The notes beneath the pieces were generated by a model, which did no database searches, was not told where the DNA came from, and saw only the letters and a list, made by a program, of their open reading frames with translations. DNA of 59,618 nt from Gracilaria domingensis (lineage: Eukaryota; Rhodophyta; Florideophyceae; Gracilariales; Gracilariaceae). Made by a program: the position numbers and the translations under genes. The stretch spans positions 1 to 59,618 of the forward strand of contig VCMS01000328.1 of the NCBI GenBank assembly GCA_022539475.1, written 5' to 3'. Below are positions 41,491 to 59,591 of this stretch, one piece after another (position 1 is the first letter of the stretch; every line of letters begins with the position of its first letter).

Positions 41491-42388
41491 CTCACAGGGA
41501 CTGATTTTGTCTCCAGAAAAAACCGTTTTCCCAGCTCTTCGTCCACGGAATCAATGTCTATCGTAATCGAATAAAATGGGGAGCTATACTCCCAATCAAG
41601 AAGACCATTTCCGAAATGTCTCCTGTTGGTTGTTTCAAAAGCAGTTACTACTTCACTTCTGAAGAGCATGGGGAGAATAATTGCTTTTCTCCAAAGGACA
41701 ATCAATGTCCGCTTTGGAACCCGAAGACCACAAATCTTCACTCGCTACTATTCTTGGTTCTGCAGCCTTTGTGGCTGCGGTACAAAGGGTGCCCCGTGCA
41801 CGTAACATATTTGGTATTCTCCTAGTCCTTGTAGTTCTTGTCATGGGATGTGCTCATCGTAGAAATATGTGTTGCCAAAAAGCTCAATCGTTGATGAAGA
41901 CTGTTCCGTCTGTCTCTTGCAGATGCTAGTTTTTGGCGAGGGTCGTCCAGAAATTGGCAAGGGTCGTCAAGTAAATTTTTTGAAAAAATATCGAGATCAA
42001 TTATTTCAAAATTTGGAGATAATTGCTTGGGTCGTCCAGAATCACTGTGCAGTAAATACTGGTGGGTTTTCCACTCATGCTAGTTCTTTAGTCGAGGGCT
42101 ACCTGAACGGTATTTCGCGAAGTCTAGGTTCAGTTTCCATTAAGGTGCACATTACACGATACCTTCTGCGGAATGATACCCTGCAACGCATGGAATACTA
42201 GTGCTAGTACAGATGGTACCCATTATAAAATCATACCGTTTTATTCGTATCTATTTTTCTATCGACCGCTTTTGCTAACCACTACTTCGCTATATTACAT
42301 GTACCATTTCTCCATGATGGTGCGGGTGTAGGCGCATTCTGCGCCAGCTGCCGCAGAGGGCGGTATCGGTAGAACAAATACGCACTCC
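41491..42388. other. Spacer, no supported gene
   Basis: Only short overlapping ORFs on both strands (the longest is 110 codons at 41869-42201, no recognised motif). The phrase GGTCGTCCAGAA or GGTCGTC recurs three times at about 41940-42045. Confidence 0.4.
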
Positions 42389-43315: not shown

Positions 43316-46300
43316 ATGGTCTACTACTGTACACATAAGAAGCGTGGGTGCCCCTTCGTTACTCGCCGAGGAGTTTTATCTCTTCAACAGCATGTCAACC
43401 ATTGCCCGTTTCGTCTGAAAGCAGCGCTGGAAGACGAAAATAGGCGGCCCATTCGGAGAAGCAAGCGTCTCAAGCTTTCCGCGCCGGCGCCCGCATCTTC
43501 CGAAACGGTCAGTGCCCCTTGTCGCCTTCCCGAGCCTCCGGTGTGCGAGGAAATCGTCGACCCCACTCCGTGCGCCCCTCCCATTCCGGACACTTCGCAT
43601 TGTGTTTCTCCTTCCCCGGCTCCCGCGTCATTGGAGCGAGAACACGGAAGCAGTTCCCGCCCAGTGCCTTCTGAGGAGGCCCTCGGTGATTAGCATATGG
43701 ATTATCTCACGGTTTGTCTGGCTTCAATAGCTTCCGATCTTGGTCATCGTGAGGCAGACGAGTTAATTGGGCTACTTCGGGACCCGCGATTCTCGCAAAA
43801 GCGATTCAACGAGACCATAACATGTTCCAAGCGCTGTACAGAACTGAAGAACGCCATTTTCGAACGATACGCCTCAAAGGACGGTTTCAATCGAAGAACT
43901 GTCTCGCCAGAAGGATGTAAGTTCAGCGCCACCCTCTACACGAGAGACCCCGTTCAGACACTTGTGAAACAGCTCCAGTTGGCTAACAACGAAAACACAT
44001 TCTTCCACCCTATACCTCAGACCCACTCCACGAAAATATCTCACCCCATGTCCGGCTCTCTCGCAAGAGAGGCCACCTCAAAACTTAAGGAAATGGTCAT
44101 GGGCTCTTTGGATAGTAGAATAGTGTGGTACTCCCAAGAAATTAGTTACAGTGAATCTTTCGTAGGTCTTCTGCAGGTATACACCGATAAGTCTTCAACA
44201 ACTCTAAAGCAAACATCGGTTACCGCCTATCCTCTTCACCTCATATTTCTCAACTTCTCCGACGAGCTTCGCCGTAAGTGTATCCGTGATCACCTCACAG
44301 TAGTGGCATACTTCCCTACCACACTGATCGAGGTTTCCGCATCTGAAGCAGACGCAATGCCATTCGTTTCTAGCAAGTCTCTGCGCGAGTCCAGGATGCA
44401 AATCCTTCAAGAATCTCTTCGTCAAGTCCTGGAGCCCATTCTAAATCTCACGCAGAAAGGTTTTCAGTTCATCGGCGAAGAAAAATTAAGTCGAGTGTGC
44501 CATCCTCTGCTTGCAAGTTATTGTGCGGATATTCCTGAGGCTAAGGACATTCTGTCCATTCTTCATGGGACCAAAACGGAAAGCCCGTGTCATAGATGCA
44601 AATCCCCTCGCTCATCTTTATGCAGTCCTATTCCCACCTCATTCAACGGACGTTCTCAAAAGCACACGAAAAGCATCCGAAAGACATACACAGCTATCTT
44701 GCAACATGCACAAAAAGATGAGGCGGAAAGACGTCCACGTCGTGCGAGGGAGAGGAGATCTCAAGCGGATACTCTGATGCGTTCAAATTCCATATCTCTC
44801 ATTCCTTCGTTCCTCGAAACTTCCGTAAGCCTTGGAATGATCCCGGGATTGTCTCCATACAGTCTGTTCTCATTCGAACCATTACACGACTTGCATCTTG
44901 GCATCTCGAAGCTGATAAAAACGGCCACAATCGAGAGACTGCAGTCAGACACCCTGTGCACCACAATAGGAACATCTGCATCGCGTTCATTTCGAACGAT
45001 ACGCACCCAACTCCTCAACCATGCAAACGCAATTCTAGCTGCCATAGAACGCGATTCTCCTGCCAAAGGTTTACATATCCATTTCTCCACGCAGGAGAAA
45101 GGCAAATCTTTGAATGGTATCTTCACGAAAGACGGTCTCCGTGGAATGCTGGAGGCCAAAAACTACAAAGCACTTGACATGGTCTTCCCCTTCATAGGAG
45201 CATTCATTGACATATGCTGTGGAGAACAGGACGTTACCCCAATCACAACCGTTTTCTCTCAGTACTCGGACTTGCTTTCGACCTTATTCAGATACAATCG
45301 TGACCCTGGACTGAAAGCTCTCTCCTGTGTCTTAGTTCGGAGATTGAAGCCTTCAAGCGTTCCGCAACAAAGACTCTGGCAGATTTTCATCCCTCCAGAC
45401 TGGGAACTCTGAAGTTTCATCTTCTCGATCATCTCGTGGACGATATTCGCCGTCTGGGAAGTATCAAGTATTACGACGCAGGCATATACGAACATGCACA
45501 CCTACTATTTAAGAGACACTACAAAAAGACGTCCAGAAGAATAGCAACGGCTGTGGAGGAGACTATTCGCTCCATTGAGCACGGACATGTTAGAATGCAA
45601 TGGAATGGCAATACTCCTTACCAGCGTAATCCAGGTTTACCAGGAACTTCCACACAGCTTCCTCGATTTGCATTGAGAGGGCGTTCTTTCACTTTACGAG
45701 CTCTTCAACATTGTGTTTCAAGTATGTCCAGTTCAAAAACATGGACTGCTGTTAAGAGATGTTCTCAAGTACGGACCCAAGGTCGATTCTTGACCAGATT
45801 AGTGAACAGGCCCTTCCTCCTTTCCTCAGTCTCGTGAAAGAAACACTGGATGAGCACTCTATTACATACTTCCCAGAAAAGACAAGGATAACTCTGGTGA
45901 ATTCGGCCGTCGTGAAAGGCGGTTTCGTTCCGACTCTTGAACACTTCGATTCGTCTTCTAAGGCACTTAAGCTGGGACGACCCAAATACCCCATCATCCA
46001 ACGTGTCTTCGCTTCTCCAGCATTTGGTCCCAGTAGAAAGCCAAAGTTTTCCACTGTATTGGTAAGCGGAGAAGATTCAGAGACTTGGGTTGCCCAGGTA
46101 GTCGCTCTGATTCGAATATCTCTCCTTGATTCTGCACTTACCGCACCAGAGGTGGCATTCGTCCGGTATTTCGAGGTTTTACCCCCCGCAACAAACATCG
46201 ACCACATATTGAAATGCATATCTTTACGGTGGGCTACAAACGATGAAAAGAACCACACTCTTCCGTTCCCTCGTCATTCCAAAGCGGAGACTATCGTAGA

Positions 46301-46639: not shown

Positions 46640-48883
46640 TCATCGGCTCACACTGTCAATAAAAAATTGTTCTTGCACAGTGAGGTAAAGTCTTCCGTTC
46701 GACGGCGTTCGATATCCAAATGTAGCCTCTCTCATGTCATTACCAAGAACCTTAGTCCAATCTTCGGTTTTCGTTCCAAAATTATGAAACTCGCTCGAAT
46801 TGGTCCTCAAGACACGTTGCCTAACATCCCCCAGAACATTCTTTAAACACAGAGGTAGCAGTTGGGCAAACTTCTTTGTAAACAGTTTCTGTCTCTGGCC
46901 ACCCCTTGACACATCCGTACTTAGAAGGCTCACAACCGTCAACACCCAAGCGTCCAAACGTGCGAGCAACAGTATTGTTCCATCTAAAAAGGTGCCCGTA
47001 TCCTTGTCTTCCACATCATACCCAATAAACTCCTTCAGTACTTGTACCCCGACACGGTTTCGGAAGAACAAGTCTTGATCTTCCGTCGGCATATCCTCGA
47101 TATTGTCCGCATTGGAGTACTTTAGACGAACAAATGGGGCTTTTCTCTACCATGAAGTGTTCGGTACACCATTTTCGTCAAGACGCAGTATGTTCTCCTG
47201 CGCTTCCTTCAACTGCATTGTGAGTTCGTCAGCATTATCTTCTACCAGCTTTGTTCTGCTCCAAATCAGATCGTACCCCAGGAGCAGAAATAGTTTATCC
47301 CTCGTATTTCTCTTCCGAACGCCCACGACGTCACTCATGGTCTGCCGCATTCTCTGCATAAGGCACATATCTGCACAAAGTTCCAGTATACACCTGTCGG
47401 TAAGAGATGCTTTTCTAATACTTTCCCAGCTCAACTCCTTCAACTCGCTTTCAACCATTTTCTTCAGCAAAGCATCTGACCCCTCCTCTACTGACGGTGT
47501 GAACATGCCAAAACTGCCCAAGAGCTCCACGGGGTTTTTAGGAACCATGTATGAACCACCTTTCTCCGGCTCAATAAGCCCTTCCCCACTCTCAGTTGCG
47601 TCTTCCACCTTCTCGGCACGGTTACCCCAATTTCGGGTGAGCGACTCACCTTCGAGCCATAGCTCACTTGTTTCTCTCCTTACCCACGTCAGCATGTTGT
47701 GATACACTGCTCGAGCAACCCCTCGAAACTCGTGGCACACCTCAATTTTATGCTTCTTTCGACCTGTCTGCCCAGGTTCACCAGCACGTGTACTCCTATC
47801 TCCCTCCTGTTTCAGTGCCCCCTTTAGCCTTTCAATGACTAGATCCTTCTCTTCAAGCCTCTTTTTCAAAGCCGTACTCTGCTCTTGGGCAATTTTTACT
47901 AGAATACCCCGAACCATCAAGTCCTCTTGTAGCGTCTTAACCTTTTCTTTCAAGCAATTCAGTTCATTTAAAAGATCACGTCTGTTCATAGAGGTTGGAT
48001 TCACACCAGTGTGGATATCTTCCGGTATTTCCATAGCCTCTTCGGCGACAGGCCCCGGTAATTCCGCAGGATTCGGTGTTATTTCGTTATCGCAACTATC
48101 CTAATGTGCCATACCCTTAGACACGAGAGGCTGCAGGCGTTCTGTGTCTACCCTTGGCACGGCTCCGAGCTCCAACTCACGTGTCTGTCCTCCTCCATGG
48201 CATCGTATATCAGATGAATTGGGCCTCGTACGAGCTGCAACGGCCCCCGTTCTGGAAAGAGGGAAAGGTCGAGGAGTAACTCGTCCATCAGTTGTCTCTC
48301 GATTTTTTATTGTCTTTCTCCCTTGTCCGGACCCATTGCGAGGCATAATACGATTCATAGCGGCCCCAGTTCTAAAAGAGAGGGAAGGACGTGACGATCT
48401 TAATATACTAGGGCTCTCACGACTTCTCGTCATTGTCCCTTGTTTTCCAGATCCACTGGACGGCGTAACCCGCGCCCCAGTAGCTCCGGTCTTCGATATC
48501 GGCCGGGGACATCAAGGTTTTGGTTTCATACGAACCTCTTCAGTTCCAGTTGTCATGCCCTCCTGTCCTGACCCGCTGGGCCGAGTTACCTCATCTTCTC
48601 GAGGAGCAGAGACAGATGCACGATTTGCATTATCGGGAGTTGACGGCACGACATCGTTCGCTGATCCACGAATTCTGGACGCAATCCCGGAAGACGCTCC
48701 GCTTAGAGATGGGCGAGAGAGTACTGTAGAACGACGCCCACTGACTCTCTCCTTCGTCGAGGACGACTTCCGTTTAGGAAGTGCGGTGCTTGTAGCCTGA
48801 TTCGTATCATCCGATGCTCTTCTCTTCTTCTGTCCACTCTTGTTCCGCTGCGTACCATTTCGCTTTCTCGGCGTTATACCCAT
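46640..48883 (-). pseudogene. Nuclear coiled-coil protein in one frame with three internal stops
   Basis: A 747-codon frame runs without any shift from ATG 48881-48883 to TGA at 46640-46642. It is interrupted by TGA at 48512-48514, TAG at 48101-48103 and TAG at 47147-47149. The N-terminus is basic and disordered (MGITPRKRNGTQRN, GQKKRRASDD), looking like a nuclear signal. A Ser/Arg/Gly-rich region follows. After 48034 comes a heptad-like coiled coil (LLNELNCLKEKVKTLQEDL, then LKKRLEEKDLVIERLKG), then a helical C-terminal half with no recognised domain. It lies convergent to the transposase (150-bp gap) and in tandem with the methyltransferase-SET gene (245-bp gap). It could be an accessory factor of the same element. 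Function unknown. Confidence 0.55.
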
Positions 48884-49128: not shown

Positions 49129-52100
49129 CTATTGCTCCAATGTCAGAGCCCAGTCCCAGGCGTACTGCTCTCCGTAGTTGAAATACAACTCTTCGCCCCT
49201 CTCAAAATCTCTTACTGCTCTGCAACGAAGTAGAGCATAGTTAGAAAGGTCGGATTTAAACTGTATCACGGACTTCGCTTCCACCACCTGCACAATGGCA
49301 CCTCGAGTCCTGTTTGACCGGGGCTCCGATAAATCGGGATCCCCGGCATGATATCCGGCGTCGTTAATGTAGCCCCCGATACAAAAAGGCGCCGGGACAA
49401 TGTACGCTTCGCTCTCCTTCCTATCCTGAGCCTGTCCTGGTCTATTCCTCAGGTGCAGAAAATCCGTACCAGTCACAGTGACCATCATAGAAAACAACTT
49501 GTACCGCACTGGAGTTGCTCTGAGACAGCCAATTCCATACGTTAAGTGTCTTGTCTTCCCGTTCGTCAGATCCGTGTATACCAAAGTTCCATAAAAATGA
49601 CAGATAGTTTCCCCAGCCAATATCTTATGTTCCGTGAACACCCCCATACCAGCACGGGGATGTCGAATCTTAGAAGATGCTACATGTAAGCGATAGAGAT
49701 TGGCTTCAAAAGTCAATAGCATATGCATATCCATTAGATTCAGAGCTCCTCGGTACTTCTCCTCCCAAAGATCTACAGTATGCTGTCCACACTTGTCGAC
49801 AAAGTCCCAGTCCTTCCAGTATCTTCCTAGGAACTGAGTAATATGTGCAGGCATCACTTGGTACTGGGGGTAACCAAATGGAGCCTCCCATTCAAGCCGA
49901 CCTCGGTCCCGATGTGGAACCCGTTCATAAGTCGTTGAAGCCGTATCCACCACCTCCTGTTCAACCAGGATGTCATTCTTCCCCCCGCGAATAACTTCGG
50001 CCATAAGAGTCGTTAGATGGTGCTTCGCATGGCTGAAACATGGCCTATTCTTCTCGCACCCCAAGAACTTCCTATGCTTTGTCAGCGATAGGCACGCCCT
50101 ACCCGTAGAAAACGTTCCCGCGAACATGTCCATGACAAAATCACCCGGTCTTGTGAAGCGACATATCAACTCTTTCATCAACTCCCTCGACTTCTGCTCC
50201 GGTCTAATGTACTGCCCACCTGGTACTGAACTACCTGGCTCATGTACCTTCCATGTCAAGCACTCCCCCGCTCTCGGTTTTGGCACCCGGTCAATTACAT
50301 TCCTGTTAGGCGGGAAAGTAGAAGGAATGAAATTGTTCTCCTCAAATGGAGTAAGACTGGCTTCCTCCGATGGTCGCAATCCACGCTTCACCCCATGAAC
50401 GGCGTACTCCGTTACGGGCTGTATCCCAAACTTCCGTGTATTCCCTCCAACATTACTTCGATCCCGGATGAACACCAGTGGATTCGCATCCACTTTAAAC
50501 GAAGGCGTGAGTTCTGGTTTACCTTCGCTTCCAGCTTCATCTTTAGTACTCGCCGTTTCCGAAAGTATCCTGTGCCAAACATGAAACTGTGTCATGGCAC
50601 AGAATATAATGAAGTGCCCACCTGACCGAAGCGCGGAACTTATTAAGTCAGCCGTACGGATCATGTCATCCTCACTGAAGACATCGTGAGCACTATTCCG
50701 TTTGCTTCTCTTCCTTCCAGTGTTAAAGGGAAGGTCTGTTAGGACAAGCTGTGCCTCACCCCATAAAATCTCACTCTGATTCACAAACGTTTCGTGTGTG
50801 TGCCTCAGGTCCTTCATGTCACAGTTGTACGCTACAAAGTGTGACTTTCTCATCCCCTTCCACACCTTGTCCATATTCATTCGAAGGAGACTGGATATCC
50901 CGTTCATGGGCGGCTCAATACCAGTCTTTTGGATGTTGTAACCGGCAACCCGAGATTCATGCTGCGCAAGATTCACCGGCTTCTCGAAGTCGTCACCATC
51001 GGAGCTCACGAGGTTCATATACTCTCGACGAGGTGGGGGTGGGGCAGACTTGGTCGAAGAAGGTTCGGCATTACCGGAATTTTTAGGGGTTTTCGTCAGT
51101 TCAATATCAGGTTTCGCATGAATGCCGACATGGAACCCTGCCGCATGACGCATATCCTGTATCGGTTTCCATAGCAACTCCGAAAACTTCTGAAATCGAG
51201 CAGGCAACTCACCGGAGTCAGAACCAGATACGGTATCCATCCGTATCTCCGAAAACTCTATCCAGTTCCTCATCTGATCAGCCCGTAAGCTATGGAGGCT
51301 ATCGTGGGTGCATACGGTTTCGAGGTCTGTCAAAAATTCCTTAGCCAGTATTCGGAGGTTTGTATCGCATTCATCACTCAAGGTCTCCACCGATCCACTA
51401 GTACTGCTCTGTGGCACATCATTTGTGTTGAATCGAGTACTCTGGCTCGGCGGGGCATAACCAGACTCCCGTGTCTCTAGCGCCGTATACTTCAACGTCT
51501 GCATATTCATGTAAATGTATGGTTTCACCATATGCTGAACGTTTGTGTATCCAAGATGAGCCGCAAAACAACTCCATGCCCATACGACCTCACTGAAAGC
51601 GAATCCCAGTCGATCACAGTTGTCTTTGGAGAACGACGTAAAAGTGGGTATGTACACAGATGGTGCGTGGTTCACTTTTCGTTTCTTTTTCGGTTGTTTC
51701 TTCTTCATCATTCGGATGTTGTCGTTCTCTCCCATTATGTGGCCGAGGTATGATAAGTATATAACGACCTCAAATGGGTTCACAGCTGTTGGTGGGATGA
51801 ACACTGTCGTCTTCAGAACCTGCTTTCTCCTGGTCATGAAATAACCAACCAGGCATCGCACCGGTTGGTATATACCCATATCCATAGAGAGAAGGAAAAA
51901 ATCGCGCAGTCTCTGGTCCTCATCCCCGTCCTTCTTGTCAAGAAGCTTCGTTACAAGATATCGTTCTTCCACAGGTTTGTTATTCACAACACTCTTTCGC
52001 AGCTGTTGCAGTGTCAAGTTCTGGAGGTTCTTGGAGTTAGTGGCCTCCTCAAACATCTTCCTTGCCTCCGGAATATCCTTATAGTTCTCGGCGAAGAACT

Positions 52101-52266
52101 CTATTAACCCTCTAAACCCCACGTCCCGTGGCCGATCAGGGCCTCCATCGCTGTTTGCCAAAGCATCGCGAAGAACCAAGAAAAGTCTGACATATGCATG
52201 GAACGCCGGAGGCGGAGCACTCATGTCGATAGGATGTATCTCCTCTCCATCATCGGTGGAATCCAT
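49129..52266 (-). CDS. DNA methyltransferase-SET domain fusion protein, 1045 aa
   Basis: Intact single-exon frame. N-terminal 470 residues are unassigned, with a basic nuclear signal KKKQPKKKRKV at 188-198 and a Pro-rich linker near 410. Residues about 500-755 form an N4/N6-type DNA methyltransferase in the order IV-X-I: motif IV is LVLTDLPFN (D511-L-P-F514), motif X is RPEQKSRELMKELI (688-701), motif I is VMDMFAGTFSTGRA (711-724), followed by FLGCEKN. Aspartate in motif IV favours adenine N6 as target (inference). Residues about 865-1040 are a SET domain: GMGVFTEHKI (873-882), the YINDAG block in the place of NHxC (966-971), and GEELYFNYGEQY (1024-1035). No cysteine-rich pre- or post-SET is seen. 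The protein could therefore write both DNA and lysine methyl marks in the nucleus. The ATG is only 30 bp from a TTTAAA box, so Met15 is a possible alternative start. Stop is TAG. Confidence 0.85.
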   Translation of the reverse strand: MDSTDDGEEIHPIDMSAPPPAFHAYVRLFLVLRDALANSDGGPDRPRDVGFRGLIEFFAENYKDIPEARKMFEEATNSKNLQNLTLQQLRKSVVNNKPVEERYLVTKLLDKKDGDEDQRLRDFFLLSMDMGIYQPVRCLVGYFMTRRKQVLKTTVFIPPTAVNPFEVVIYLSYLGHIMGENDNIRMMKKKQPKKKRKVNHAPSVYIPTFTSFSKDNCDRLGFAFSEVVWAWSCFAAHLGYTNVQHMVKPYIYMNMQTLKYTALETRESGYAPPSQSTRFNTNDVPQSSTSGSVETLSDECDTNLRILAKEFLTDLETVCTHDSLHSLRADQMRNWIEFSEIRMDTVSGSDSGELPARFQKFSELLWKPIQDMRHAAGFHVGIHAKPDIELTKTPKNSGNAEPSSTKSAPPPPRREYMNLVSSDGDDFEKPVNLAQHESRVAGYNIQKTGIEPPMNGISSLLRMNMDKVWKGMRKSHFVAYNCDMKDLRHTHETFVNQSEILWGEAQLVLTDLPFNTGRKRSKRNSAHDVFSEDDMIRTADLISSALRSGGHFIIFCAMTQFHVWHRILSETASTKDEAGSEGKPELTPSFKVDANPLVFIRDRSNVGGNTRKFGIQPVTEYAVHGVKRGLRPSEEASLTPFEENNFIPSTFPPNRNVIDRVPKPRAGECLTWKVHEPGSSVPGGQYIRPEQKSRELMKELICRFTRPGDFVMDMFAGTFSTGRACLSLTKHRKFLGCEKNRPCFSHAKHHLTTLMAEVIRGGKNDILVEQEVVDTASTTYERVPHRDRGRLEWEAPFGYPQYQVMPAHITQFLGRYWKDWDFVDKCGQHTVDLWEEKYRGALNLMDMHMLLTFEANLYRLHVASSKIRHPRAGMGVFTEHKILAGETICHFYGTLVYTDLTNGKTRHLTYGIGCLRATPVRYKLFSMMVTVTGTDFLHLRNRPGQAQDRKESEAYIVPAPFCIGGYINDAGYHAGDPDLSEPRSNRTRGAIVQVVEAKSVIQFKSDLSNYALLRCRAVRDFERGEELYFNYGEQYAWDWALTLEQ

Positions 52267-52281
52267 CGCTTCAGCGCAAAC

Positions 52282-53030
52282 AACGGATGCGAGCCTTTAA
52301 ATGGCGACTTACGCTGGGCACCCCCGCTTTCGGCAGCTCCTCCCAGCCCACTGCCAGTCTCGTCCGTGTCCGTGTCCGCTCGGTGCGAGAGCGTCGCGTG
52401 TCGGCCACGTCACGATTCCGAGCTATTTCAAAAGTCGCGTAATGTGCTAAAAGCCGCGCATCAAGTGGGTGTGAAGCGCTAGTTTCCCCTAGTTCGATAT
52501 ATGTGCACGACGTGTGCAGCGAAATCACTGCCGGAAGTGCCGCGAGGAGTGCTTTGGAAGGTCTCCGGAAGGCGCCGGAATGTGGCCAGAACGTGCCCGC
52601 GGGCGGGGGGTCGGTCGTGTTAGGGTACCTACCCTAACACGACCGGACCCCCCCGCCGGCGGGCACATTCTGGCCACATTCCGGCGCCTTCCCGGGACCT
52701 CCCAAAACACGCCGCCCCGCAGTGATTTCGCTACACCAGGCCGCCGGTACGTTGGCGCCGCTGTCCACGTGTATTTGCGGGAGTAGGCTGTACATGGAAG
52801 TGAATGAGTGTACTCTTGACTACTATGCAAAGCATTTGAAGAGCATGATTAGAGAGCGCGACCATTGCTCGCGTGAGTCATCATTGCGCGAACTCCACGA
52901 CTCTAAAGCGTACAATGAGCGTGCGAGCGGCCACGGACAGGACACGGACGAGACTGGCAGTGCGCTGGGAGGAGCTGCCGAAAGCGGGGGTGCCCAGCGT
53001 AAGTCGCAATTTAAAGGCTCGCCTCCGTTC
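52282..53030. promoter_or_regulatory. Divergent promoter built as a large inverted repeat
   Basis: Outer arms 52282-52382 and about 52924-53030 are inverted copies, roughly 100 bp each and over 90 percent identical by eye. Each arm holds, reading toward its gene, a GC-rich block (GCTGCCGAAAGCGGGGGTGC) then ATTTAAAGGCTCG. The TTTAAA boxes are at 52296-52301 (30 bp from the methyltransferase-SET ATG) and 53010-53015 (77 bp from the ParB-dioxygenase ATG). Identical promoter arms imply that both genes answer to the same signals. Between the arms lies a second palindrome (52518-52732). Confidence 0.75.
52518..52732. repeat. Inner palindrome, about 105-bp arms
   Basis: Arms 52518-52627 and 52630-52732 pair around the two bases CC at 52628-52629. 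The innermost 16 bp are perfect (CGGTCGTGTTAGGGTA / TACCCTAACACGACCG) and the outermost 14 bp are also perfect (AGCGAAATCACTGC / GCAGTGATTTCGCT). The middle part is imperfect but clearly paired (GGCGCCGGAATGTGGCCAGAA). It could be a foldback or MITE-like insertion, a pair of abutting element ends, or a regulatory hairpin. No flanking target duplication was recognised. Confidence 0.85.
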
Positions 53031-53091
53031 TTGTATCGTCCAGAGCGAGAGTATTGTTGATATACACCTTTCACTGCAATAGCTGTTCAAG

Positions 53092-56000
53092 ATGAAGCCA
53101 ACTCGTGTTCGAAAGCGTACGCAAAGCGTGACTCCTCGCACTCGGCGGAGCACTCGATTATTGCAAGGTGGAATGCGGATTTCTCTGCAGATGGATATTG
53201 AGAATGAAGGAAAGGTGATAGTCGGGAAAGCGTTGTTGCATGGAATTGGAAGTGTTCTACGCCGCGAGTTGCACGGGAAGCAATTGGACCCAGATCTTGT
53301 GGTGGTTCATAATATTCTCATCAGTCGAAGCGGTCAGACGTTCTACCCTTACCGGGCGGAGGGCCTGGATCTTCCACAATACATCCAGGATCTCCCGACG
53401 GCCCCTCCTTGGGATGAGAAAATAGTGGAACCGGTGGCAGCCAGCATTCCGGCGTCGAAGCGAGGAACGGTGAGCGCTATGAGTGAGGTGATGACGCCGA
53501 CAAGCCGCACGGAGCCAATTCGAAGTTCATCAACACCGAGAGGTAGCGCATCAGTAGCACCTCCGCGGGCAGGTCCGTCGTCTGTTACGAAGCGGTCTAT
53601 GGAGACGAGAGCATCCCCAGCTACGAAGCAGACAGGTCAAACAAAGTCTACCTCCGCTACGAAGCCCACTGCGTCGAAAAGGGCTTCTCCTGCGATGAAT
53701 CAGACCGTCGACAAAAGGGGATCTTCTGCGTCGAAACAGAGGGTTCAGCAGGGGACGGCTGTGCAAGAGGAGGAAGATGAGATCATAAAAGGTCCCCTTC
53801 CAGACGCGGATGCGCAATCCGCACAAGGAGCTGGTCCATCTGTACCCCAAACTGCACCACAAACTGCCGAGCAGCAGGACGATGACGTTGTGCTTCTGTC
53901 CGCAAGAATGACACGTTCAAGTGTTTCTGGCGAGCGGTCTGGAACACAAGGGACACCTACTCGGAGCAAGACGTACAGACGAATTCGTCAGAAGGTACCA
54001 AAAGTGAACCTCAATCAGTACCGGATGGTTGTTGTTACTGTTGACATCAGTCTGGTGGACACTCCGCCCAATGTACTCCGTGGAGTAAGTAAACGCCACG
54101 TTGAAGCCCTTGTGAAGAGTATGGAGGAGCGGGGGATATTGCAGTCGATGGGTTCTCCAGTGGTGGCCTTACAAGATGCTACTACGGGAGAGAGGGATAC
54201 TGACAAGGGACGCCTAACGAAGAAGTGCTTCATTGTAGATGGTTTGCATCGTCTGAAAGCTATACAATATTTGGCAGCGACTGGTGCACCGAAGTGGAAG
54301 CGATTAGCCAAGTTTTGGCGTTGCAATCTGCTGATACGAAGAGATGGGAGACCCATTGGGATGAAGGAATTGTTATGTGTTGCTTCGTACCTCAATGAGT
54401 CGACGAGTACCATGCGAAGGATGATTTTTGCAGACAAGATACACTCTATAGTTAGTGTGGTCGCCATTCTAATTGAAGATGTTGAGGGGGTGACTCCGGC
54501 AGACGTGGATCCTGCAGAAGTAACAGAAGTGTTGAAGGAGAGCCAACTGATTGGGACTGTGCAAGAGCGTCAGTATCTGAGATATGCCAATGTCGCCCTG
54601 CAACTCATGTCTCCTGAGGGAATGCTGGCCCATTTCGAGGATATATGTGAGACTGTGAGTGACATACGTCTCACACATCTGTCCCATACTCCGCTTTATG
54701 TTTTGGATGCCGAGGAGTTTTCCTTCATTCTTGATTGTCTTCAGATGTTTCTATTGAAGGGCAAGTCGACGAAGACAAAGCAATGGAAACGTTTTGAGGA
54801 GGTTCGAGGTTTCTTTTATGATAGAGCAGTGTCCCTGTTCCGCGTGGCTCGAGCAGTGAGGAATGAACTGAACGAGGAAGAGTCCATGGAAGTGTTCCTG
54901 AAACGCGAAGTCAGTCTTTCTGCTCCATCGAATGAAGATGACGTTGAAGCCCCAGACAACAACGCAGCTGTGTATCAGTTCCTTTTGGGACAAGTTGTGA
55001 ACTTCAACACATTGCCGCGTGTTTGGAGCAGGACGAACTCAATTAGAACTGCCACGACTTCCGTTCAGAATCGATTGCGGACGATGGTCAAGGTAATTCC
55101 GCCCCCCGCACCATTGAAGCAGTCCGTGACGAAGAGGAGGACTCCCGCTGCTGCTGCTGCAACATCTGGCAGTGAAGAAGGGGAGCCGCGAAGAAGTGCA
55201 CGAGAACGGGCGCAGGTGAGTTATAGGGAAATTGAGCACGGCCGAAATCGAGGTGCCATAGAAGTTCTGGATAGCCCCGAAGAAGAACAGCGGGCTCCGC
55301 CGAGGAAGAAACGGAGAAAGACTTTCACACAACAGATGAGATCTACTCTGAACAGCATGACACCGGATGACCTGATGTCTCAACTAAATGAACATGTGCT
55401 GAGAGGAAGGTCGATGAAGGTTCAATTCGTGGCATTGGAAGAGGGAGCGAATGCAGAGAACGCAGGCAGTTCTGCATTTGTGGATGACGAAGAGCTTCTT
55501 TCTGTGACAGTTCCACGGGTTGTAACCGTCGAGAAAGATGCTGCGCCAGACGATCAGCAAGAGACAGGTGGGGGGTCATTTGATGACGAGTTACCTATAG
55601 CACTTCCGGAATCTGAGGAGCGCGGACTTGTTCGAGGAGACCCATATGATGGCCCACCGAACCCATCATGGTGCGGGTATGTCAGGCTGAGACCGCAGGA
55701 ATGGCAAGGGAAGAACGTAATTGAGCACAAGGACCCCGGGCTCAGAGTCATTCACTTGCCGAAGGGACATAGGTCGGAGCTGCTAAGTGTCTCGAATCTC
55801 AGAGATGTACACCATCTTGTCTTTTGGCACGCTGCAAGGGCTGAACATCTCCTACGGGCGGAGACTTTATGTATGCAGTATCCTCGTACTCGACCGACAG
55901 GTATGGATGATGAAGAGGTGCTGTGGGTTGCTGCGAAGGAGCATGACGAATTTGGGCAAATGTTCTTCGCCCGAATGCAAGCTGAGCTAAGGCAGAATGG

Positions 56001-57000
56001 ATATTGCGTGCTTGATGGCTTTGCGACGGATAATGGTGTCCCTAAATGGGAGGAGCTGGAAGAAGTTCGGGAGTTCGGAGATGTGTCGGGGAAGTTGGTG
56101 GACTTCTTCGAGAATGAGTACGGAGCGATGCCGGATATACGGAAAGGGGAGGAACAGAAGTCGTTTGTTCAAATAATCAACGATGATGAAGGATGGAAGG
56201 ACGGTAGCGATGGAACATTTGAGGGGAGAGTGATGTCGACACGTTGGGTACGTTGGAGAAGCCGGAGGATAATGAGGAGCTCAGGTGGGTTGTAAGGTCG
56301 CGTGCTTTACTTGATGTTCGAATGGGTACAATTGCTGCGGCTTTGGGACTATGGGACAATGAAAGGAAGCTGTGAAGATGTACACTCCGAAAACTGGTGG
56401 TCGATTTCTGGGAACGACGAGAAAGTGCAAGCGCCAGACGCTGCACAACGACTTCAGTGGTCAAAGGAAACAAGGAATACTGGTAACCCCGGATACTTTG
56501 TAATGGCCTCTGGAAAAGAGAGCTTTCCTCTCTGGGTGAGCGCTGGAAGCCATCAACTGGTGGGGATGAACAACCAACAGTTGCGAGTGATGTCGGAGGT
56601 GTATCCAGCGAAGAAGATAATCATCCCACCGTACTCTGTATTCGTGGGCCGTGGTGATGTGACACATGCTGGAGCAAGTGGGAAGGACAAGGTGGATAGG
56701 CCAGAGTCTATAGATTTTCTGGTTAGATACCACATGTACATGGTACCAGAGGGCTACGCACTACCTGATGCTGTTCATCGGGTGCGGGATTTCCGACCCA
56801 CGTTTGTCAATGGTGACGAGGAGGAGGAGGCGGAGGATGAACTGTTGTCCGATAAGGAGGGTGGGGCGGTTGACATGGAAGAAGACCAAGTGGTCGTGGA
56901 GATTGGTGTGGAAGCCGACGCCGGTAGAACCGAAGTGCTCGAGAGTAGTAGTGATGACGAGTTGCCAGTAATGAGGCTGCGAGCGCCTCGAAGTGGATGA
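53092..57000 (+). pseudogene. ParB-like domain joined to 2-oxoglutarate/Fe(II) dioxygenase, frameshifted at the C-terminus
   Basis: ATG 53092 opens 1067 intact codons. N-terminus is basic, then a long Ser/Thr/Lys/Pro-rich region (about 110-300). A ParB-like domain at about 305-450 shows RGVSKRHVEALVKSMEERG and IVDGLHRLKAIQYL (381-394, matching the ParB GERR-x-x-A box). A helical region, a basic patch RKKRRK (about 738) and an acidic linker follow, then the start of an oxygenase fold (LRQNGYCVLDGF, about 966). The rest lies in other frames: one shift near 56225, a second near 56372, a third near 56456. Each equals one lost (or two gained) bases, and together they restore the first frame. In the shifted parts the iron ligands are visible: HND at 56444-56452, distal His at 56665-56667 in GDVTHAGA, and a candidate 2-oxoglutarate Arg at 56725-56727. 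Last stop TGA at 56998-57000. Substrate unknown; oxidation of a methylated base or side chain is an inference from its partner gene. Confidence 0.7.
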
Positions 57001-58685
57001 AAATGAGATGATTAGTAAATTATGAGTGTCTTTGCGAGTACTAAGAGTAGTATATTATTACAAGGCTATGCATATGAACATAGAAAAGGTGCGGCAGGCT
57101 GGTAATTGAACAAATGTCAAACGTCTTTGGTCCAGTTGCGTCTAATTGCAACATGCCAAATGCTCGGTATGGTTAACATCATTGGTGGCACCAGTCAATT
57201 CGCAATTGAACATGTAGCGTCCTAACATTTCTGAAACTGCACTTAAGGTTGCTTTTAAGAGAAGTATGAAACTGAGAAGTCTATACAGTTCCTGTCTATG
57301 CGGTACTTGTGGCAGTGTGGTGACTGTATCAGGAAAAATGGCAGAGGAACAGAGAGACTTGGCGGAAATTTCACCCAATACCTTTCTAAGTTCATATATG
57401 CCAATGGTTACGGTATATTAAGTTCCGTTGATGAACTTGAGAAGAGAAGGAGAGTCAATTCCAGAAGAAGTGTGAAGTATGATAGAGGTCATTGAAACGT
57501 GGGTTCGAATTTCACAGGGCTGGATGTGGCGACGGTGGAGGGATGTATGTGTTATGATAGTGTTTGTTGTTTATGTAGGACTCGAGACTATAATGGTTTG
57601 GTTGTCTCGGTCGGATATCAATGGAGCTTTCTCCGCGTTGCGTCTGACGAAGAGTTATTGAGTAATGTGAGATGGGGCAGTTGTCCAGTGAGGAGTGCTG
57701 AGCGGAATTCGCCGTTATCCTTACTCACTAGTGCACACGTTTGACACTGGCAAGGGATTTAAATAGGAGGCAATGGTATTGTGAATGATGATGAGAAGGG
57801 GTTCGTGGGAGACCAGAAGTGATACGTGGGCTTCCCAATTCGTGTTACCAATCAAACTGTGGCAGTGGAGAGAGAAGTGGATTCTGCTATTGGGGAATCC
57901 TCTGTGTGTCAGAAGAGTGTTGATGGTTTTTATCTACTTCCCCGGCGATAAAAAGTTGCGAAATTGACAAGCCTCAACTACGATAAAAGGAAAGCGGACG
58001 GAGGAAAATCTATGATGGATATGAATCCTCGAGATTTATTGATACGCGCATTGACGTCGTGACGCTTCGAAAATAGTACTTTGAAGCGAAGGACCTTTGC
58101 ATGAGGTAGGCGTGTACTGGCGTTCACGTCAAAGAAGATGTATCCCCGGGTAGAGTACACAACCTGTTTCGAAGCGTGAGAGTGTGTAATTCGACAATTA
58201 TGCTGGTGGCTCTGGTTCGTACGCTACGAGAAGAAAGACAGCGAAGATAAAAACCACCATGAACATAAGAAAAGTATGTGAGGATAGTATGACGACACTG
58301 TTTATTACTGAAATCTCATAGCTCATAGACTAGATGATTGACAGGCAGTCGTAAGCACGTAAGAAGCAAGATGCGCAAGAGCATGTCTTAAAGCCGATTG
58401 ACACTTATTTTGTGTTATGTGCCTCTCTGTTTACAGTTCTGCCGACCCTTCTGATTCTCAATGGCACGTCCTCGCACCCCATCAACGAAGATATAGTTAC
58501 CGCTGCTGGGAGCGGTTCGTCTCGCCGTTCACATTGAACTAGCCAGGGTGCAGTTCATATAAGAGGGCCATGCATTGGAAGGGATTCCCGAAAGCATAGG
58601 ACGAAAACGTGGGTCGAAACTGGGCTCGTTTTCAACCAAGCTAGCCGAGCCCCACTATTTTTCGTGAAACGAAATGTCCCCTATG
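57001..58685. other. Spacer downstream of the dioxygenase gene, no supported gene
   Basis: About 1.7 kb with only short ORFs (up to 81 codons) and no recognised motif. A TTTAAAT word is at 57756-57762. A short inverted pair CGCTTCGAAA / TTTGAAGCG lies near 58061-58086. No obvious terminal inverted repeat matching the region left of the transposase was found. Confidence 0.4.
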
Positions 58686-58979
58686 TCACATTTCGATCGT
58701 TGATTGTGTGCGTACGCAAACGCGGTTCGGAATAAGGATGCTCAACACTTTTGAAATACCGCGAGTTAACTTCTGTTTTCCACTTCGGACAGTCCAGTTG
58801 TACGTGAAGTTAGGGAGTCCACTGGTCTTTTCTAACGTGCTCAAAACTGCTTGTGACCGCCTGCTTCGTGAACTCGCGTGCGATTCATTTAATGTGTATT
58901 TAGCGAAGCTCTCAAGCCCTCGCGTGCACACTCGGTAGCTCTTTCGGCCTTCAAGCCGGAGATCTATCGGTATGCTCAT
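58686..58979 (-). CDS. Hypothetical short ORF
   Basis: 97 codons from an ATG at 58977-58979 (MSIPIDLRLEGRKSY) to TGA or an equivalent stop at 58686. Basic, with a C-terminal IPNRVCVRTQ. No recognised domain and no promoter evidence. A chance ORF is as likely as a gene. Confidence 0.15.
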   Translation of the reverse strand: MSIPIDLRLEGRKSYRVCTRGLESFAKYTLNESHASSRSRRSQAVLSTLEKTSGLPNFTYNWTVRSGKQKLTRGISKVLSILIPNRVCVRTQSTIEM

Positions 58980-59231
58980 GGATAATCTCACCCGTGGCCT
59001 GTGGGTTCAGAGGATTGCAAAAGTGTAGCCACGCTGCAGGTGCCTTCCCATGAAACTCTTCGGCTATCCTCTATTATCTCGCCCAAGTAGCAATTCCGAA
59101 AAGGCGCAACGCGTGCATTGACTGTACGTGTCATGCATTTGAGCTGTTCGCAGGAATGTTCTCCGCCACTGCTTTTCGAGAGTACCGTCAATATCCACTT
59201 AATCACGGCGTAAGCCATTTTCGAATATTCG

Positions 59232-59591
59232 TTAGCCAGCTGGCTGAGGGTTACTGTCTTGGCTCCTAACTTCTGAGTGTATACATGTGGTTTGTTTGGT
59301 TGTGTGGTATACGTCTTCTATATAATGGGCGTCAAATGGGTGTGGTATGCCAGGATGAGCAAGGATGTGATTGATGTTCACAAGGTGTTTCGTAGATAAA
59401 AAGTAGTCTGAAGAACGACCATATACGGGTATTGCTAGCACTGTTTCAAAACGTGTTACACGACGAGAAGCTTTCGCACTCGATTGCCAGTAAAGAAAAG
59501 GCGATGATTTAGAACTCATAATATTATATGTACGGGTTTCAAGTGGGTAAAGAAAACTATGAATATCTTCAACATGAGCCTTAGAAATCAA
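59232..59591 (-). other. Open frame without ATG, possible coding remnant
   Basis: 119 codons opening at a TTG, ending in EVRSQDSNPQPAG and TAA. The composition looks protein-like (VLAIPVYGRSSDYFLSTKHL), but there is no start codon and no known motif. It may be the end of another element running off the window. Confidence 0.2.

Follow-up and report, generated by a model that had tools for sequence, protein, structure and literature searches.

Here, we report that two large divergent genes of the florideophycean red alga Gracilaria domingensis, one joining a predicted DNA methyltransferase (MTase) to a SET domain and the other joining a ParB-like domain to a 2-oxoglutarate/Fe(II) (2OG) oxygenase-type domain, are cargo of a multicopy Plavaka-type DNA transposon. 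The pair was found in a stretch of 59,618 nucleotides (contig C328, hereafter the window), and the genome searched was the 77.9 Mb assembly of this species, whose published genome is given as 78 Mb. The reading that we favour, at a probability of about 0.6, is that the transposon bears a writer/oxidiser cassette controlling the element's own epigenetic state, and that the element probably manages its own chemical marks, independently of those of the host.

At least 44 copies of the MTase-SET gene are present in the genome, that of the window included (46 matches were listed, with two split matches merged), and the others are 85–96% identical to it. The ParB-2OG gene has at least 43 matches, again including that of the window. 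The copy number, over 40 for either gene, rules out a single-copy host locus, although some copies may be duplicated contigs since identical scores were obtained, for example, for C128/C169, C160/C203, C364/C411 and C34/C388. The termini of the element are inverted (left CGTCTGT, right ACAGACG), and the fetched loci together with the window contain 5 occurrences of the left terminus and 8 of the matching right one. Comparison of eight regions places the right end of the window copy beyond the end of the contig, and the 19.7 kb copy in C168 is the sole one with both ends identified. The Plavaka transposase shares the element with the gene pair in four other copies. The original prediction spoke of a self-contained system; this holds for the whole element and not for the two genes alone, because the pair is cargo beside a transposase, inverted ends and further genes (Table 1).

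Table 1. Features of the transposon copy in the window, with positions in the 59,618-nucleotide stretch.
Feature	Position	Strand	Remarks
DNA methyltransferase-SET gene (1045 aa)	49129..52266	(-)	one unbroken open reading frame (ORF)
N6_N4_Mtase domain, PF01555	50038..50751	(-)	E 1.4e-13, residues 506-743; motif IV ahead of motif I (DMFAGTFST)
SET domain, PF00856	49171..49650	(-)	E 9.2e-5, residues 873-1032
Divergent intergenic region, presumed promoter	52279..53032	.	93-nt inverted repeat around hairpin
ParB-like/2OG oxygenase gene	53092..57000	(+)	frame broken in window copy between ~56250 and 56490
ParB-like domain with IVDGLHR	54004..54861	(+)	weak PHROG ParB matches and DGxHR motif
2OG-Fe(II) oxygenase-type domain	55567..56820	(+)	HxD (HND) 56444-56452, distal H 56665-56667
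Left transposon terminus CGTCTGTCTCTTGCAGATGCTAG	41907..41929	(+)	element similarity begins here in three other copies
Plavaka-type transposase ORF (571 aa)	43697..45412	(+)	PF18759 E 2.9e-18, cut-off exceeded
Gene of protein without known family, in pieces	46640..48883	(-)	ORFs 46640-47092, 47147-48034, 48512-48883
Decayed HAD-like phosphatase gene 1	57741..58247	(+)	tblastn 36%; 7 stops in stretch
Decayed HAD-like phosphatase gene 2	58430..59284	(-)	tblastn 35-40%, in pieces

As had been predicted, both genes are real and face away from a shared intergenic region, which holds an inverted repeat and a hairpin. The call of a fusion between DNA methyltransferase and SET domain was borne out by the profiles, PF01555 and PF00856 both exceeding their curated Pfam cut-offs. 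By its motif order, with motif IV preceding motif I, the enzyme is best classed as a permuted beta-class N6/N4 DNA amino-methyltransferase; DpnA and CcrM are its best solved relatives by sequence, followed by MboIIA and RsrI among those named. Of the motifs from which the prediction was made, IVDGLHR, HND and DMFAGTFST were located, while DLPF is private to the window copy: motif IV reads DPPF in 12 of the 13 copies compared from family A, to which the window copy belongs. Family A thus carries the catalytic (D/N/S)PP(Y/F) motif and the window copy departs from it. In relatives the motif is DPPY (lineages B and C, and P0003), NPPY (lineage E) or EPPY (lineage D). The SET part gave weak profile matches to EZH2 and SETD8/KMT5A (E 0.008–0.1), and the Pfam match is accompanied by GxG, Y, N and ELxxDYG-like motifs; the canonical NH(S) reads IND in lineages A, B and E and INH in D. 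PF00856 was also above cut-off in P0001, P0003, L028 and L030, and was absent from the listing for L029 and L033, two fragments with frames that end within SET.

The second gene is likewise real, as predicted, but is not intact in the window, where a 1067-aa frame from 53092(+) is continued in another frame up to 57000. Elsewhere an intact copy forms a single 1305-aa frame (L018:4611-8528). The ParB-2OG protein had no Pfam or NCBIfam match, and a lax scan of 10 members or pieces gave scattered single-member matches, none of them to ParB or an oxygenase. The predicted architecture is nevertheless supported, the putative ParB-like part by matches to the PHROG 'ParB-like partition protein' family, which are weak (E 0.0017 to 0.077), together with a DGxHR motif, and the putative oxygenase part by conserved HxD, H and R residues. 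DGxHR, which we take to be a mark of the ParB/sulfiredoxin superfamily, was seen in all six representatives readable at that position (family A, P0007, P0008 and lineages B, C and D), and HxD, H and R occurred in order in all five readable there (family A, P0007, P0008 and lineages B and D). Within family A the triad is readable in 6 of 9 copies, the window, C171 and C55 copies being out of frame at this point. P0007 and P0008 are distant relatives having both domains, with 35–36% identity in the C-terminal part and 26–28% in the ParB-like part, and P0005 and P0006, both from G. domingensis, are 89–92% identical to the protein over 78–79% of the query. A fungal origin of the pair, which the association of TET genes with Plavaka had at first suggested, is rejected on these matches. 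A profile search from the ParB-2OG alignment recovered only P0005 and P0006, a tblastn search of P0007 against phages gave no match, and neither did sequence and profile searches of the PDB with the 2OG domain. The public names of P0005 and P0006, 'cell-wall-anchored protein SasA' and 'mediator subunit 15-like', are misleading for transposon proteins.

The two genes travel together, as the original prediction would require, in many copies and in three further lineages. A divergent MTase gene was listed within 6 kb in 14 of the 43 ParB-2OG matches, and four more matches lie too near a contig end. Among eight sampled from the other 25, MTase-SET sequence was found upstream in five, two adjoin another part of the element and are probable deletion forms, and one shows neither. 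This count used 44 of the 46 MTase-SET matches listed, two split ones being left out, together with 13 of 150 PF01555 matches, chosen by visual inspection from contigs that also carry a ParB-2OG match. In the whole genome PF01555 gave 150 scored matches of 328 candidates, that of the window included, and six were fetched: two belong to family A and four represent separate lineages, with identities to the window MTase-SET protein of 43% (B, MTase-SET half), 31% (C), 25% (D) and 30% (E). The ParB-like partner is divergent in lineages B and C, as in A, and lies in the same direction (tandem) in D; no such partner was found within 4.5 kb in lineage E, where the left terminus of family A stands instead. 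Lineages of 25–43% identity that retain adjacent genes point to an old pairing. Relatives sought in viral and prokaryote genome contigs were not found. In L029, at position 1981, a right terminus of family A apparently interrupts the SET part of the lineage C MTase-SET gene, which suggests that one element has inserted into another.

Silent changes were compared with a neutral expectation using single-base codon variants only. Among 13 family A copies they were in excess in the MTase (p 1.1e-5), the SET domain (p 1.1e-5) and the N-terminal part (p 0.037), and the transposase showed the same among 5 copies (p = 0.006). A pure decay of the pair is disfavoured by the excess in MTase and SET. For six ParB-2OG copies, with the broken frames of the window, C171 and C55 left out, the test was not significant (N-terminal part 0.36, ParB 0.085, linker 0.076, 2OG 0.19). 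Pairwise dN/dS agreed broadly with this test for the pair (MTase 0.35, SET 0.29, ParB 0.49, 2OG 0.52), and was mixed for the other cargo, where copies are few, ranging from 0.50 (HAD2) to 1.52 (PanE-like, four copies).

On the favoured reading, both proteins would be expressed from one palindromic divergent promoter region. The beta-class MTase of the writer would N6-methylate adenine in DNA and its SET domain would methylate a histone or other lysine, while the ParB-like domain would bring the oxygenase to DNA, where it would oxidise a base, most simply the methyl group installed by its partner. Setting and resetting marks on the element's own copies could keep these transcribable, mobile and able to spread, and the enzymes may thus mark and rewrite DNA or chromatin as the original prediction suggested. 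Transposon-borne TETs have been proposed by Kojima to relieve silencing (PMC12730594); here that proposal would be extended to an element carrying its own mark.

Several observations weigh against this reading. The target of the enzymes could be the host instead of the element. The 2OG part matches no library profile and the ParB part matches weakly, both folds being putative; selection on ParB-2OG was not significant; and the annotated family A copy P0005 reads DDLHG for DGLHR and is without part of the 2OG domain. In the window copy itself, motif IV and the 2OG region have both suffered damage. The partner genes fetched for lineages B, C and D are cut or are not single open frames: those of B and D spread over several frames, the MTase-SET gene being in pieces in B and one open frame in D, and in lineage C the contig end and an inserted terminus both truncate the sequence. 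Plavaka elements have a target-site duplication of 2-3 bp; TA flanks C168 on both sides, a putative duplication read from one copy. Finally, CGTCTGT..ACAGACG fits neither of the published Plavaka consensuses, 5'-TGT..ACA-3' for PlavakaA and 5'-CATCA..TGATG-3' for PlavakaB (PMC12730594), and the element is therefore 'Plavaka-type' by its transposase only.

Which base is marked bears on the principal alternative. N6-methyladenine is likelier than N4-methylcytosine, the lesser guess, because in bacteria the DPPY motif has been assigned to N6-adenine enzymes and SPPY to the majority of N4-cytosine enzymes, DPPY/F occurring also in N6AMT2 (PMC8885841). It is also favoured because the genome gave no match to a C5-DNA-methyltransferase and the element shows no CpG decay. 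Matches to PF00145 numbered 0 in the genome and the profile was found in 10 of 14 controls, all of them prokaryotes, and a gene absent from the assembly would escape detection. The observed/expected ratio of CpG was 0.96 both in the part of the window that the element occupies and in the other loci fetched (286,715 bases), and among 13 copies the C>T rate was 0.0087 at CpG versus 0.0089 elsewhere. Alternatively, the oxygenase could be a TET/JBP relative that demethylates or oxidises host 5-methylcytosine, as in the fungal TET+ transposons, with the MTase-SET protein acting independently, which we regard as unlikely. TET/JBP genes are indeed carried by Plavaka and other fungal DNA transposons (PMC12730594, accessible text). 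Cytosine methylation has been reported, in the accessible parts of these sources, in Gracilariopsis chorda (PMC8566409) and in Gracilaria dura and Gracilariopsis lemaneiformis (PMC9861306), and because these too are Gracilariales we keep 5-methylcytosine as a possible substrate. Taken in its entirety, the window consists mostly of Copia elements and has a CpG ratio of 0.85 with TG and CA at 1.27–1.28, a ratio that counts on the same side. Set against this alternative are the lack of a C5-DNA-methyltransferase match and of CpG decay, together with an oxygenase domain that has no Pfam match: Tet_JBP (PF12851) was not listed up to E 10 in the Pfam scan of the 10 ParB-2OG members or pieces, and a search for it across the whole genome found nothing, with its control silent too. 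The missing match lowers the case for TET/JBP membership and does not settle descent, because TETs of the distant PE type are likewise recognised only by structure-based comparison, HHpred tying them to other TETs weakly and predicted structure more clearly (PMC12730594, accessible text).

The shared intergenic region, which may act as a promoter for both genes, has inverted repeat arms at 52279-52371 and 52940-53032 that are 96% complementary, and encloses a hairpin at 52514-52736 (z = -17.5). Copies C168, C262 and C171 share this architecture, and in lineage B, too, the two genes are separated by large inverted repeats. A scan for bacterial-type promoters and terminators found nothing. The hairpin centre (window 52605-52652, GTTAGGGTACCTACCCTAAC) consists of telomere-like repeats in inverted orientation, and C168 and C171 have comparable TTAGGG/CCCTAA cores between the two genes. 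Dam methylation controls the transposition of Tn10, and one could imagine a control in cis in which adenine-methylated ends license or block the transposase while the ParB-like domain binds the internal palindrome. The recurring inverted repeats and a transposase within the same element would suit such a control, yet it has no known binding site or methylation motif and would leave the SET domain unexplained, and we think it quite improbable.

Better copies carry, besides the pair, two HAD-type phosphatase-like genes, a PanE-like reductase and a ribulose-phosphate 3-epimerase. The stretch of HAD gene 1 has about 82% DNA identity to other copies and is open in C168, and the intact form of HAD gene 2 matches PF08282 (E 1.4e-10). 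The epimerase matches PF00834 (E 1.5e-61), many of its matches being 3' fragments or stop-bearing, whereas the reductase is called from a weak match (PF08546 E 0.062). In C168 a stop-to-stop frame of 537 aa spans much of the gene without known family, and the two larger pieces of that gene, when scanned, gave no Pfam match above cut-off. This cargo raises the idea of a base hypermodification, in which methylation and oxidation would start a decorated base that is fed by the phosphatases, the reductase-like protein and the epimerase. The clear phosphatase and epimerase profiles speak for it, as does the PanE-like gene common to lineages A and B (46% identity); however, no glycosyltransferase or other base-attaching enzyme was recognised in the element, the epimerase is so often fragmentary, and the weakly called reductase has the dN/dS of 1.52 given above, all of which makes the idea highly improbable. 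Captured genes carried by the transposase as functionless junk deserve almost no credence, for stops or frame breaks in many copies, that of the window included, and the non-significant selection on ParB-2OG are outweighed by the statistically significant surplus of silent changes found for both MTase and SET and by catalytic residues and pairing conserved at 25–43% identity.

Other traces of mobile elements were seen in the genome. A HAD-like phosphatase gene at L019:647-1510 (C296:17650-18510) gave 136 scored matches, the best of 908 candidates; the others are 94–98% identical and 128 of the 136 are without stops. Several of them, such as those on C1, C13, C40, C101 and C109, have a 3' fragment of the epimerase gene less than 3 kb away, which points to an abundant short derivative retaining one intact gene. 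A 57% identical ribulose-phosphate epimerase without stops at C17:505012-505731 is possibly the host gene, and the transposon epimerase may be an old capture. Within positions 1-39500 of the window, 12 of the 12 larger ORFs scanned match domains of Copia-type retrotransposons.

The original prediction knew of no described locus with this combination, and a search of the open-access literature found no published transposon with a DNA methyltransferase-SET fusion, or with such a writer paired with an oxidiser. As far as the accessible texts go, each known system shares one aspect with the Gracilaria element and none has the combination. The TET+ fungal DNA transposons (Kojima 2025, PMC12730594) are alike in a Plavaka-borne 2OG oxygenase thought to alter DNA marks, but theirs is of the TET/JBP type, the main text never uses the word 'parb', the text accessible describes no amino-methyltransferase-SET paired with it, and the hosts are fungi and not a red alga. 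The giant Plavaka repeats of Amoebidium have genes whose matches include red algae, but many of their cargo genes are tyrosine recombinases, and neither an MTase-SET nor a ParB-oxygenase is mentioned in the accessible text (PMC11244446). The N4CMT of bdelloids is, like the present enzyme, a bacterial-type permuted PF01555 enzyme in a eukaryote that is tied to histone marks; it is described as belonging to the host, with a chromodomain and an SPPY motif, and as linked to transposon silencing (PMC8885841), whereas the Gracilaria enzyme is transposon-borne, SET-fused and of the DPPF/DPPY type. HarbingerS and MuDR elements of Phytophthora likewise bear a SET histone methyltransferase, with no DNA methyltransferase fusion or oxygenase partner mentioned where they are cited (in the accessible text of PMC12730594).

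Transposons with epigenetic enzymes are thus already known, and it is the combination of writer and oxidiser that appears to be new, in a pair that persists across deeply diverged lineages within one genome without a C5-DNA-methyltransferase match. A cassette by which the element controls its own epigenetic state predicts amino-methylated, possibly oxidised, DNA on these elements, and if this is true, mobile elements bring an epigenetic code and do not only dodge one. More speculatively, and in our opinion doubtfully, cytosine methylation may have been lost or sidelined in this lineage of seaweeds and transposons may run their own marks, at least 100 transposon-borne N6-adenine MTase-SET fusions writing DNA and histone marks and the ParB-guided oxygenase beside them erasing or converting the mark. 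Should the marks be installed by transposons in this way, competing mobile elements would have charge of most of the epigenome.

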